Shown piece by piece: positions 825 to 6,169 of a DNA stretch of 43,641 nucleotides (position 1 is the stretch's first letter; each line of letters begins with the position of its first letter). Both the position numbers and the translations under genes were made by a program. Source of the stretch: Acidobacteriota bacterium. Lineage in GTDB: Bacteria; Acidobacteriota; Terriglobia; UBA7540. The stretch lies in contig CADDZC010000029.1 of the NCBI GenBank assembly GCA_902812365.1, positions 1-43,641 on the forward strand, written 5' to 3'. The notes under the pieces are model-generated. The model worked only from the letters and a program-made list of their open reading frames with translations, searched no databases and had not been told where the DNA came from.

Positions 825-863
825 AAAAAGCTTCGGGGATGCAGCGCTGCATCCCCGAAGCTT
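825..863 (-). terminator. Perfect 36-bp palindrome with U-tract on the minus strand
   Basis: Bases 828-863 are a perfect inverted repeat of 18+18 bp with no spacer (centre between 845 and 846). On the minus strand the stem runs straight into five T residues (complement of A825-A829), the classical intrinsic-terminator layout. On the plus strand no U-tract follows, so termination of rmuC there is less certain, although the stem could still serve both directions. Confidence 0.8.
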
Positions 864-886
864 GTGTCCAAGATTTTCCGAAGAGG

Positions 887-922
887 TTATCTCTTCTTCT
901 TGGCTTTCTTCTTCGCTGCCAT
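887..922 (-). CDS. Putative 11-residue Lys/Ala-rich micropeptide
   Basis: An ATG at 922-920 opens an 11-codon frame reading MAAKKKAKKKR and closes with TAA at 889-887. A purine-rich ribosome-binding site (GAGAGGAG) lies about 6 nt upstream. The ORF sits between a near-consensus promoter (991-1019) and a strong intrinsic terminator (825-863), in a predicted transcript of about 160 nt. The composition (6 Lys, 1 Arg, 3 Ala) recalls the basic tails of bacterial histone-H1-like proteins, but it is far too short for a homology claim. It may be a real micropeptide, a leader ORF, or an accidental ORF within a small RNA. Function is unknown. Confidence 0.45.
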   Translation of the reverse strand: MAAKKKAKKKR

Positions 923-990
923 TCTATTCTCCTCTCTTGCTGACTCAAAATTCCGCCAATCAAACTGGCGGAGCGCGTTTTCAACTCCCA

Positions 991-1019
991 TGTATAGTGA
1001 TTGAGTGAGACGTTGTCAA
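991..1019 (-). promoter_or_regulatory. Near-consensus sigma-70 promoter for the small minus-strand transcript
   Basis: Read on the minus strand, a perfect -35 TTGACA (1019-1014) is followed after exactly 17 bp by TATACA (996-991), 5/6 to the -10 consensus. It is the best promoter match I found in the window, and no long gene lies directly downstream of it. Confidence 0.75.
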
Positions 1020-1182
1020 GCAGAAAGTGAAGGGATCTGGATAAAAGTTGCGATGATGGATTCCTCACCCCGGAGATCCCGGTCACTCACATCCGGAAAA
1101 TCCGGCGGGGCGGAGGCTGGCGCCGACGCGGGAGCTCTGCTCCGCATCTAACTGCCAGCGGGCCGCAAAGGCGAGCACGACG

Positions 1183-2274: not shown

Positions 2275-3222
2275 CTACGGCGAGGGCGCGAAATAGCCGT
2301 TTTTGGCCCGTACGCGCAAGCCTTTTTCGAGCGGCTCAATCGTAATGGTACGGAAGGTTCCGTCATGCGCCTGGTTGGTGGACAGATAGGCCAGGCTGTA
2401 CTGGCTGCGCAGCTCGCGAGAAATCTCTTGGAAATTTTCCGCCAAGTCGCTCGCTTCAAACGGGAAAAAAGCCCGGCCGCCGGTTTGTTGGGCAAGGTAC
2501 TTGAGGACGCGATCGCCGCGCGTGTCGATGCCGCTTCGGTTGGTGCTGATGGCAAAAATAGTGGCTTCCGCCCGCTGCGCCATGGAGAGCGCGTCGTCGC
2601 GCGAGTGCTGGCTTTGGTTATCGCGACCGTCGCTGACAATGATCAACACGCGGCGCAGGTACGGTTCGGGAGGAGGAAAGATCAACATTTTCTGCTGGCA
2701 CGCATAGTAGATGGCGTCGTAAAGCGCCGTTCCTCCCCCGGCCTGAAGGCCTCGAATGGCGGTGGCGAGTTTATCCAGGTCGTCGGTATAGTCCTGCAAC
2801 ATCTGCGGCTCAACATCAAATCCCACCACGAAGGCCTGGTCCTTTCCCGGCCTCAAAGTCTCGTTGAGAAAGTCGATGGCCGCTTCTTGCTCAAAGTGCA
2901 GCCGTTCGCGGATGCTATTGCTGGTATCGATCAGGATGCCGATGCGCAGCGGCAAGTCAGTCTCACGGCTAAAGAAGCTGATAGTTTGCGGCTTGCCGTC
3001 TTCGAACACCCGGAAGTCATTCTTGGCGAGGTCCAACACCATGCGTTCTTTCTTATCCGTCACGGTGAAGAGGACGTTGACCAGGTTGACTTGGACCTTG
3101 AGCGGCTTCTGAATCGTTGTCGCTTGATCAGCGGCGGGGCGAGGAGCAGCCGCTTGGTTACCTTGGGCTGCAACCTGACCGGGCAGGGAGAGCAGCAAAG
3201 CCATCCACCCAACTCTTTTCAT
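2275..3222 (-). CDS. Secreted VWFA-related domain protein (paralogue)
   Basis: 315 residues with a clear Sec-type signal peptide (residues 1-20, ending near QVAAQ). The layout matches the 1183-2205 protein: VNLVNVLFTVTDKK strand, DFRVFEDGKPQTISFFSRETDLPL, MIDAS D99-T-S-N-S, IIVSDGRD, and the C-terminal RSQYSLAYLSTN...DGTFRTI...RAKNGYFAPSP. The shared architecture implies an old duplication, but the sequences are well diverged and the genes now face each other. The gene has its own good promoter (3251-3280) and shares its upstream region with dnaA. Role: exported metal-dependent binding domain, exact function unknown. Confidence 0.9.
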   Translation of the reverse strand: MKRVGWMALLLSLPGQVAAQGNQAAAPRPAADQATTIQKPLKVQVNLVNVLFTVTDKKERMVLDLAKNDFRVFEDGKPQTISFFSRETDLPLRIGILIDTSNSIRERLHFEQEAAIDFLNETLRPGKDQAFVVGFDVEPQMLQDYTDDLDKLATAIRGLQAGGGTALYDAIYYACQQKMLIFPPPEPYLRRVLIIVSDGRDNQSQHSRDDALSMAQRAEATIFAISTNRSGIDTRGDRVLKYLAQQTGGRAFFPFEASDLAENFQEISRELRSQYSLAYLSTNQAHDGTFRTITIEPLEKGLRVRAKNGYFAPSP

Positions 3223-3250
3223 GATCCGCCTGCCTTCTACTATCGAAAAA

Positions 3251-3280
3251 AGTATAAGAAGGGGCAGAGTCTGGCGTCAA
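3251..3280 (-). promoter_or_regulatory. Predicted promoter of the 2275-3222 VWA gene
   Basis: On the minus strand TTGACG (3280-3275) and TATACT (3256-3251) are separated by 18 bp, each 5/6 to the sigma-70 consensus. The start codon follows about 30 nt downstream. Confidence 0.6.
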
Positions 3281-3302
3281 CTCGCGCTGAACCGCGGCGG
3301 CC

Positions 3303-3331
3303 TTGGCGTAAATTGGGTTTTGTGCTATCTT
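3303..3331 (+). promoter_or_regulatory. Weak candidate promoter for dnaA
   Basis: TTGGCG (3303-3308) and TATCTT (3326-3331) have 17-bp spacing but only moderate matches to consensus. It would give a leader of about 200 nt before the dnaA ATG. Confidence 0.3.
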
Positions 3332-3541
3332 CGCTACGGGGTGTGAGAGCGCGGCTCGGAATTTAGTGCGGCGCCTTCTTCCATTACGTCTCAGATTAGA
3401 TGGATAAACAGGTTTGGTCGGCTGACACGGTCGCCGCCGCCCGTCGTAAGTCTTTGAGTCCCCGACGGGCATGATCACCCTGGGTGACCTCGGTGTAAAC
3501 GCGAAGAGGCTCGCCACACTCCCTCCGCTTGAAAGACAACT

Positions 3542-4870
3542 ATGAACGCCTGGCAGGAAATCCTCAACGATCTCAAGAATCGGGTGAACCCCCAGAGCTA
3601 TCAGACCTGGCTGCGCCCGACGCGTTTGAGCCACACGCGCGAGGATACCATTTTTGTCCAAGTACCGAATCGGGAATTTCAGGAATGGATCCATGAGAAT
3701 TATAGCGGGCTGATTTACGAGGCCATCAGGCGCCTTGGTCTCCAATACCGGCAGGTTTCCTTCGTGTTTCCCGAAAACACTCGACGTTCAGAACCTCACC
3801 ATAGCGGTGCGAAGGCGGAACAAGGCAAGCTGGACTTTGACTCCGTCGACCACCAACTCAATCCGAAGTACACTTTTGATACCTTTGTGGTTGGTTCTTG
3901 CAACCAGTTTGCCCATGCGGCAGCCCGGGCCGTCGCCGAGGCTCCGTCGAAAGCTTATAACCCCCTTTTCCTGTACGGAGGTGTTGGACTCGGCAAGACC
4001 CACCTGATGCACGCCGTCGGCCATACCATTAAGAAAGAGTGGAAGGAGATGCGGCTAGCGTACGTCTCGTCTGAGAATTTCACCAACGAGGTTATTAATT
4101 CGCTTCGTTATGACCGGATGGTCTCATTTCGTGAAAAGTATCGTAACGTTGATGTCCTATTGATGGATGACATCGAGTTCATCGCCGGCAAAGAGCGCAC
4201 CCAAGAAGAGTTCTTTCACACGTTCAACGCGTTATATGAAGCGCAGAAGCAGGTCGTCATCTCCAGTGATTGCGCTCCCAAGGAGATTCCCCAACTAGAA
4301 GAGCGGTTGCGCTCTCGTTTCGCCTGGGGGCTTATTGCTGACCTGCAGCCGCCTGACCTTGAAACCAAGATTGCGATTCTCGCCAAAAAGAGCGAAAGTA
4401 TGGGCGTTACACTGCCCCCAGCGGTGGCAGACTTTGTGGCTTCCAAGATCAAATCGAGCATTCGTGACCTGGAAGGCGCCCTGACTCGTCTCATTGCGTA
4501 CTCGTCGTTGACGGGGTCTGAGGTTTCCCTAACAATGGCTCAACAGGTGCTGCGAAATATGGTCGACCAGGACGACCGCAAGGTGTCGATTGAACATATC
4601 CAAAGATTGGTATGCCAGGAATTTGCTCTTAACCTTACATTATTGAAATCTAAGAATAACAGCCATGCGATCTCCTACCCCCGGCAGATCGCAATGTACC
4701 TTGCAAAGCAATTAACTACAGCCTCCTTACCTCAAATTGGGCGAGAATTTGGCGGGAAGCACCACACAACCGTCCTGCATTCAATCCAGAAAATCTCTGA
4801 GTTACGGAAGTCAGACCGTGATTTAGACAGACTTATCAACAGGCTGAGTGATAGTTTGCAAAGGTTTTAG
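3542..4870 (+). CDS. dnaA: Chromosomal replication initiator protein DnaA
   Basis: 442 residues, normal DnaA length. Domain I is at residues 1-80, with a short linker to about 103. The AAA+ domain III begins with LNPKYTFDTFVVGSCNQFA (106-124). Walker A GGVGLGKTH is at 146-154, Walker B LLMDDIEF at 206-213, sensor 1 SSDCAPKEI at 241-249, the arginine-finger box LEERLRSRF at 252-260, and sensor 2 near R308. Domain IV carries YPRQIAMYLAKQ (379-390) and the DNA-binding loop GGKHHTTVLH (404-413). DnaA binds ATP and DnaA boxes to open the origin. The start ATG has only a weak ribosome-binding site. Codon use is visibly AT-richer than in neighbours. dnaN follows 183 bp downstream. Confidence 0.98.
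   Translation: MNAWQEILNDLKNRVNPQSYQTWLRPTRLSHTREDTIFVQVPNREFQEWIHENYSGLIYEAIRRLGLQYRQVSFVFPENTRRSEPHHSGAKAEQGKLDFDSVDHQLNPKYTFDTFVVGSCNQFAHAAARAVAEAPSKAYNPLFLYGGVGLGKTHLMHAVGHTIKKEWKEMRLAYVSSENFTNEVINSLRYDRMVSFREKYRNVDVLLMDDIEFIAGKERTQEEFFHTFNALYEAQKQVVISSDCAPKEIPQLEERLRSRFAWGLIADLQPPDLETKIAILAKKSESMGVTLPPAVADFVASKIKSSIRDLEGALTRLIAYSSLTGSEVSLTMAQQVLRNMVDQDDRKVSIEHIQRLVCQEFALNLTLLKSKNNSHAISYPRQIAMYLAKQLTTASLPQIGREFGGKHHTTVLHSIQKISELRKSDRDLDRLINRLSDSLQRF
4833..4841 (+). promoter_or_regulatory. Degenerate DnaA box inside the 3' end of dnaA
   Basis: TTATCAACA has one mismatch to the consensus TTWTNCACA. Given its chance frequency it is only suggestive, but it lies close to the box at 5003. Confidence 0.3.
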
Positions 4871-5053
4871 GCAAGGGCTGGACAAATGCTCCGGATACGC
4901 TCAGGAATCTCGGGTTTTAACCTAGAATTTACACAAGAACGGAACGATCCTATTCACGTAGAGTTTAATGGTAGGTATATGATTTCAAAGGTGTTGTGGT
5001 AATTTTCCACAAATTCACAAGGCCTACTACTAGAAACTGGAGAATATAGAAAT
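4871..5053. other. AT-rich dnaA-dnaN intergenic region, candidate origin component
   Basis: 183 bp, clearly AT-richer than most of the window. It contains a consensus DnaA box TTTTCCACA (5003-5011), a one-mismatch site ATTTACACA (4927-4935) and a two-mismatch site directly after the first box (5011-5019). The dnaA-dnaN spacer is a common oriC position in bacteria, but so few boxes do not prove it. A weak promoter-like pair for dnaN (TTCACG, 17 bp, TATATG) is also present around 4953-4981. Confidence 0.5.
5003..5011 (+). promoter_or_regulatory. DnaA box between dnaA and dnaN
   Basis: TTTTCCACA fits the relaxed consensus TTWTNCACA exactly and lies in AT-rich DNA 43 bp before the dnaN start. 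Confidence 0.6.
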
Positions 5054-6169
5054 ATGGAATTCTCAGCGGCTAGAGCTGAACTACTTAAGGAACTGGATTT
5101 GGTGCAAGGAGTGGTTGAAAGGAAGACAACAATTCCCATTCTCTCGAATCTTCTTTTGGAGGCGGGGGGAAGTTCGGTGCGCCTAAGCGCAACTGATCTG
5201 GAGCTGGGTATTCGCTGCAAGTGTGTGGCAACAGTTAAGAAGGAGGGTTCCGGCACGGTGCCAGCCAAAAGGCTGCTGGATATTGTTCGTTCCTTGCCAG
5301 AGGCGGAGGTTAGGTTCAAGCTGCTGGACAGCCAGTGGGTCCAACTGACGTGCGCGAGGTCGTCATTCAAGTTGGCAGGGATGGCTCGAGATAATTTTCC
5401 AGTATTGCCCAGTATTCCTAAGGCGCAGGCGTCGCTACCGGCACGGACGCTCGAGACGCTGATTCGTCGCACGGCGTTTGCCATTGCCAATGAAGAGTCC
5501 CGTTATACCCTGAATGGGGCTCTGCTTGTGCTAAAACCTGACACGGCCATGATGGTGGCGACGGATGGCCACCGTTTGGCCTTGATAGAGTGTGACGTGC
5601 GGGTGGGAGGATTGAGCAACGAGCTGCGGATGTTAATCCCTAAAAAGGCTATGGGTGAGCTTCAGAAAATCCTAGGTGGGGCAGGCAATGAAACAATAGT
5701 GGAAATTTGCCGGGATGATAACCACCTCTTTTTTGCCGTTGATGAGCACATCTTGATCGCCCGCCTACTGACCGGGCAATTCCCAAATTATGAAGCTGTG
5801 TTACCCCGGGATAACAACCGGATTATTGAGGTCGACCGCGCCGCCTTCTCGGCGGCGATTCACCGCGTCGCTCTGCTGGCGGATGAAAGGTCTCACGCGG
5901 TCCGTATACAACTTGATCCAGCCCAATTGGAAGTATTTTCGTCCAGTGGGGAATACGGAGAGGCTCATGAGAGCGTGGATGTTCAATACGGCGGAGAACC
6001 GATGCAGATAGGGTTCAACTATCAATACCTACTGGATTTCCTGAACGTCCTCAGCGGGGACGGAAAGATAAGAATGGAACTAAAGGATGAGCAGAGCGCG
6101 GGGCAACTTCGTCCCGACGGGGACGAGCCCTATCGATATCGTTACATTGTGATGCCCATGAGGATTTAA
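5054..6169 (+). CDS. dnaN: DNA polymerase III beta subunit (sliding clamp)
   Basis: 371 residues, the normal clamp length. All three clamp domains are recognisable: the N-terminal ERKTTIPILSNLLLEA segment (about residues 22-37), the middle domain with NEESRYTLNGALL and ATDGHRLALIE (about 156-183), and a C-terminal domain ending YIVMPMRI, the near-invariant clamp C-terminus. The homodimeric ring tethers DNA polymerase III and other clamp-binding proteins to DNA. A GGAG ribosome-binding site lies about 11 nt before the ATG. Order and orientation dnaA-dnaN are canonical, but recF and gyrB do not follow; a beta-propeller gene on the other strand does. Confidence 0.98.
   Translation: MEFSAARAELLKELDLVQGVVERKTTIPILSNLLLEAGGSSVRLSATDLELGIRCKCVATVKKEGSGTVPAKRLLDIVRSLPEAEVRFKLLDSQWVQLTCARSSFKLAGMARDNFPVLPSIPKAQASLPARTLETLIRRTAFAIANEESRYTLNGALLVLKPDTAMMVATDGHRLALIECDVRVGGLSNELRMLIPKKAMGELQKILGGAGNETIVEICRDDNHLFFAVDEHILIARLLTGQFPNYEAVLPRDNNRIIEVDRAAFSAAIHRVALLADERSHAVRIQLDPAQLEVFSSSGEYGEAHESVDVQYGGEPMQIGFNYQYLLDFLNVLSGDGKIRMELKDEQSAGQLRPDGDEPYRYRYIVMPMRI

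Follow-up and report, generated by a model that had tools for sequence, protein, structure and literature searches.

Bacterial proteins such as bTHX, bS22, and bL37 are tiny, basic, and easily missed by annotation, and trp/his-type leader peptides combine a short ORF, a repeated codon, and a terminator. Much longer polycations are found among the histone H1-like group, including HC2 (PF07382), the Burkholderia family NF038053, and AlgP with its KPAA tail, a DNA-binding protein that is also associated with polyphosphate granules (PMC9239181). We place the unit described here alongside the H1-like polycations and the small proteins of bacteria, as a version pared down to nothing but a free tail (9–26 residues). 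It is likewise Lys/Ala/Pro-rich and strongly cationic; however, the H1-like polycations are far longer proteins or tails, whereas the nano-protein is the product of a separate 9–26-residue gene.

The window analyzed is the whole 43,641-nt contig CADDZC010000029.1 (GCA_902812365.1; Acidobacteriota bacterium, UBA7540), from a soil bacterium. The unit occupies positions 825–1019 on the minus strand, with the following features:

1022–1030, minus strand: upstream element TCACTTTCT, adjoining the −35 box and near-invariant as TCACTTTCC in the family alignment
1014–1019, minus strand: −35 box TTGACA, read from the sequence
991–996, minus strand: −10 box TATACA, read from the sequence, with a 17-nt spacer to the −35 box
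952–978, minus strand: leader block ACGCGCTCCGCCAG and hairpin, close to the RNA 5′ end, near-invariant within the family
929–936, minus strand: Shine-Dalgarno (SD) sequence GAGAGGAG, 6 nt ahead of the ATG, from the sequence and the family alignment
887–922, minus strand: ORF MAAKKKAKKKR-stop, from ATG at 922 to TAA at 887, supported by coding selection and homologues of 9–26 a.a.
880–899, minus strand: small hairpin spanning the stop codon (GAAGAG..CTCTTC), from the fold, weak
825–863, minus strand: intrinsic terminator, an 18+18 palindrome with a U-tract, from the sequence, the fold, and compensatory pairs

Most of these elements had been proposed by a first-pass annotation. Its TTGACA-17-TATACA promoter is present (1019–1014 and 996–991), the Shine-Dalgarno sequence that it called good is indeed strong, and both the 11-codon ORF and the perfect 18+18-bp terminator palindrome (36 nt, 863–828, running into T829–825) were confirmed by reading the sequence. 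The leader hairpin that it described also exists (972–952), with nine pairs in the computed fold rather than the seven claimed. The promoter is near the sigma-70 consensus and, like the SD, close to optimal, from which strong constitutive expression can be inferred. The predicted transcript of ~160 nt (825–~984) contains the 11-codon ORF as its sole ORF, and the computed folding energy of the 161-nt RNA is −60.9 kcal/mol, far below the −41.6 ± 3.6 kcal/mol of shuffled sequences (z = −5.3). A search of the window for the stem GGGGAYGC..GCRTCCCC found it a single time, and 100 shuffles had none; the stop-codon hairpin is significant in 14 of 28 relatives, which is weak evidence. Immediately 5′ of the −35 box, TCACTTTCC (window 1022–1030) is possibly an activator site. 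Judged on sequence, the reading of 825–1019 as a complete monocistronic protein gene is well supported.

A nucleotide search without a peptide filter was run on 61 genomes, 37 from the same family and 24 from other families. The unit was matched in 36, all within the family (36 of the 37 members searched), at 69–80% identity, with a few matches covering only part of it; no match was returned by this search in the 24 genomes of other families. The family alignment keeps the promoter, the leader block ACGCGCTCCGCCAG with its hairpin, GAGAGGAGAAT, the ORF, and the terminator stem. Conservation of promoter, leader, SD, ORF, and terminator in the same order as in the window is the strongest proof against a chance arrangement, which the first-pass annotation had already thought unlikely; it had also named an absence of conservation in close relatives as grounds for refutation, and the unit is conserved. 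Among the 30 family loci read, the ORF is intact in every one, with peptides including MAAKKKAKKKR, MPAKKKAKAKKKR, MKKAKKKKKR, MPKKKKKKR, and MAAKKAKPKAKAKAKAKKR, the longest being 25 a.a.

Coding selection was assessed from pairwise codon differences in the family set, which had been found without a peptide filter; the counts are not independent events. The reading frame gave 250 synonymous against 74 non-synonymous differences, compared to 7:270 and 18:267 in the other frames, and ORF differences fell at codon positions 1/2/3 in the proportion 72/59/285. Gap runs were a multiple of three in 28 of 28 cases within the ORF and in 7 of 76 within the leader, and identity was 87% in the ORF, 88% in the terminator, and 46% in the spacer right after the ORF. 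The synonymous-biased substitution and in-frame indels expected of a small protein-coding gene are both present, and this very large frame contrast, together with the indels, indicates that selection acts on the peptide; on this comparative evidence, we regard the peptide as being under selection. A run of poly-Lys codons in so short an ORF could also suggest an A-rich RNA element or a ribosome-stalling minigene, in which the peptide itself would be irrelevant. However, Lys codons in the family ORFs are only AAA or AAG (57 and 149, respectively; no AAC, AAT, GAA, or GAG), Ala codons end in any of the four bases, and the indels are all in frame, leaving this explanation very improbable.

The genomic context bears on a further alternative. 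In the window, rmuC is convergent with the unit, as it is at each of the 19 other loci with an identified rmuC, and a VWA gene (TIGR03436) is usually divergent from the unit. With a terminator directly after a run of Lys codons, the unit shares its short ORF, repeated codon, and terminator with the trp/his-type attenuator leaders and might be taken for a leader peptide sensing lysine or charged tRNA-Lys. Such a leader is expected to have a regulated downstream gene on the same strand, but the unit has no co-directional downstream gene, and the lone transcription unit persists where neighbours change, with other convergent genes also seen beside it. Because the downstream rmuC is convergent, attenuation is practically excluded, and we give it next to no credence; the "regulatory leader" option of the first-pass annotation fails on the same point. 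In the window, dnaA is ~2.5 kb away from the unit and dnaN is also nearby (2275–6166); in locus L241, too, dnaA is near. We rejected the idea that closeness to dnaA belongs to the system, with no dnaA match in the six 13–19-kb stretches of relatives checked.

To look outside the family, we used a covariance model of the unit (R1); run on 299 genomes of the class, it matched 65, including nine other families. We read 34 of these matches (other families and type-2 loci, see below), and all but one shared the layout of the unit, each with a leader and terminator of its own; example peptides are MATKKKAKKKKKH, MKKAPAKKKATKKKK, and MAKCAKKKKKAAKKKTTKKKAKRKKR. In other families, the leader hairpin is replaced by other hairpins, and the promoter, SD, ORF, and terminator are kept. 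At several of these loci, VWA or rmuC still lies next to the unit, in support of orthology. Named genomes were also scanned with a pattern that fixed only the SD and first residues; this gave at least 106 acidobacterial matches, in genera including Granulicella, Acidobacterium, Paracidobacterium, and Sulfotelmatobacter. Among the matches listed, all acidobacterial ones were ≤26 a.a. (a few cut by the record edge), and the 13 outside Acidobacteriota were all ≥46 a.a.

A broader model (R2) matched 43 of the 47 class genomes sampled, with scores exceeding the control maximum in 38, plus many genomes of other classes. In the control, 34 of 143 Gammaproteobacteria genomes matched at E ≤ 0.001 (maximum 48.8 bits), mostly, among those read, through long Lys-rich proteins. 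We therefore rejected R2 E-values as evidence on their own, and out-of-class claims rest on inspected loci and scores >48.8 bits. Of the 20 loci read outside the class, nearly all hold a short ORF that stands alone, with an SD and terminator, such as MAAKKAAKKAAKKKK and the tandem MAKKKAKKKKAAKKKGAKKR / MAKRKAAKKKKKAAKKKGAKKR. As far as these sequences can tell, the same architecture recurs class-wide, and in other Acidobacteriota classes with other leaders and terminators. Tandem pairs of nano-units at one locus were seen in other acidobacterial classes (L333, L340, L358, and L360). In L336 and L337 (family f61), the nano-ORF apparently starts with ATA (AAAGGAGGTGAG..ACCATAGC) in both; this near-cognate start might be regulated, as with the AUU start of infC. 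One control genome (L364) carries a 23-a.a. ORF, MATAKKKAVKKTAKKKTTAKKKK, with an SD; Acidobacteriota may thus not be the only group with such nano-proteins.

Approximately half of the family's genomes also contain a separately transcribed type-2 unit, reached via weak matches, which was not found in the window genome (a 97%-complete assembly). It encodes peptides of the same kind (MAAKKAKKKKR and MPAKKKAKKKR) behind a different leader, with the 3′ UTR UUUCCUCCUUUCCCC-GGCCCGC..GCGGGCC. Two differing RNAs with the same peptide again point to the peptide, and this, alongside the coding-type substitution and in-frame indels, favours the "basic micropeptide" option of the first-pass annotation. 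Just downstream of the type-2 unit in L041 (minus-strand offset ~1295), we noted a possible third small ORF, MACKTKPKKKR, with an SD.

The RNA itself may nonetheless matter, and an sRNA was the third option of the first-pass annotation. Compensatory pairs occur at four positions of the terminator stem in the family alignment, and few in the leader hairpin; the 14-nt leader block is near-invariant in the family, and the terminator is as conserved as noted above. Such sequence conservation exceeds what a plain mRNA should need and suggests, from the alignment, an additional constraint at the RNA level, so an added RNA role stays possible. The transcript would in that case be a dual-function RNA, with the peptide made and the conserved leader or 3′ part also acting as a base-pairing or protein-binding sRNA. 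The type-2 3′ UTR UUUCCUCCUUUCCCC resembles the 16S anti-SD end and can pair with its own SD (L036:960-1275 and the A3 type-2 units), but this pairing beats shuffles (p ≤ 0.05) in only 4 of 11 units and is suggestive only. Given also that leader and terminator sequences differ among families where the SD and ORF persist, and that no Rfam family was matched, we consider a dual-function RNA unlikely, though not negligible.

Composition was summarized over 163 distinct units. Since these were selected by composition, their statistics describe the set rather than prove it and are circular in part, a limitation that does not touch the 30-locus family set or the pattern scan. The peptides are 9–26 a.a. 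long (median 14), with 58% K, 26% A, no D or E, and a charge of +7 to +17, meeting the Lys/Ala-rich, acidic-free composition of histone H1-like HC2; the C-terminal residue is K, H, or R in 162. A promoter was detected in 149 units and a terminator in 140. The −35 box is TTGACA or TTGACT in all 149 detected promoters (the detection pattern required TTGAC), the spacer is 17 nt in 146, and the −10 box is TATACA in 120.

A very basic product with a Lys-rich C-terminus, apparently strong expression signals, and a stand-alone gene would also fit a miniature ribosomal or RNA-binding protein restricted to this lineage, in the manner of bTHX, bS22, or bL37, and a ribosomal role is the main functional rival. 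The nano-protein is similarly tiny and basic; unlike those proteins, however, its length is variable, and length and repeat number vary freely (9–26 a.a.) in a way not expected of a specific ribosomal binding site. It also has no aromatic or structured residues. To our knowledge, no resemblance of the nano-protein to bTHX, bS22, or bL37 has been recognized, and we judge ribosome association improbable, but worth retaining.

No Pfam, NCBIfam, or Rfam family fits in profile searches, the 11-a.a. window peptide being too short to scan. The Rfam gathering score was not reached, and permissive thresholds gave only chance matches; Pfam gave no match for three 22–26-a.a. members or a 57-a.a. relative. 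Neither HC2 (PF07382) nor NF038053 matched any nano-protein long enough to scan, and only a 59-a.a. Latescibacterota protein gave weak, sub-threshold matches (17.2 bits for HC2, against the Pfam gathering cut-off of 40). The literature searched held no report of such peptides or of an acidobacterial Lys-rich small protein. The GMSC smORF catalogue predicts ORFs from 30 bp (PMC11364881), so these sequences may sit there unrecognized.

In family f36 (L357, L359, and L393), we noted an HU paralogue (PF00216) fused to a Lys/Ala/Pro tail, ...AKKAAPKKAAKKK, very like the nano-protein in composition; the nano-protein, unlike tailed HU, lacks the HU domain. The HU C-termini recovered from other sampled genomes, including the one from the window genome, had no such tail. 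The link to DNA that this fusion provides for the nano-protein is suggestive, but it was drawn post hoc, and tails of this kind are frequent among bacteria.

Our preferred reading, which we think probable without regarding it as settled, is a gene that stands alone, is probably expressed at a high level, and encodes a free polycationic tail whose partner would be nucleic acid or some other polyanion. The near-consensus sigma-70 promoter would drive an mRNA of ~160 nt, ended by the strong intrinsic terminator, and its only ORF would yield the 11-residue polycation MAAKKKAKKKR. This peptide most likely acts as a disordered polycation with no domain attached, much like a histone H1 or HU tail separated from its protein. 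Of the polyanions that it would bind, nucleic acid in the form of nucleoid DNA or rRNA is the most likely, and polyphosphate is possible. Sequence comparison shows the architecture, conservation, coding selection, composition, and stand-alone context of the gene; in-cell translation, strong constitutive expression, disorder, and polyanion binding are inferred, with no RNA-seq, Ribo-seq, or proteomic data, and DNA or polyanion binding is inferred from composition alone, with no binding data.

If translated, the unit would count as one of the smallest protein genes that stand alone and are conserved, with a distribution covering much of a major soil phylum. Its ORF is below the usual size limits of gene callers, and a Lys-rich peptide would be inferred to give almost no usable tryptic fragments, which together would explain why the gene was missed. 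Given the recurrence across much of the phylum and the lack of a match in the libraries searched, a class of very small and apparently important proteins has escaped recognition. More tentatively, and as a possibility that we would not yet back, much of Acidobacteriota may build part of its nucleoid or ribosome surface chemistry from free polycations of 9–26 residues, which would be detached and histone-tail-like, without a folded domain, and made from dedicated, strongly expressed genes among the smallest conserved stand-alone genes known. Such a peptide would offer a minimal natural test of the effect of a pure polycationic tail in a bacterial cell.
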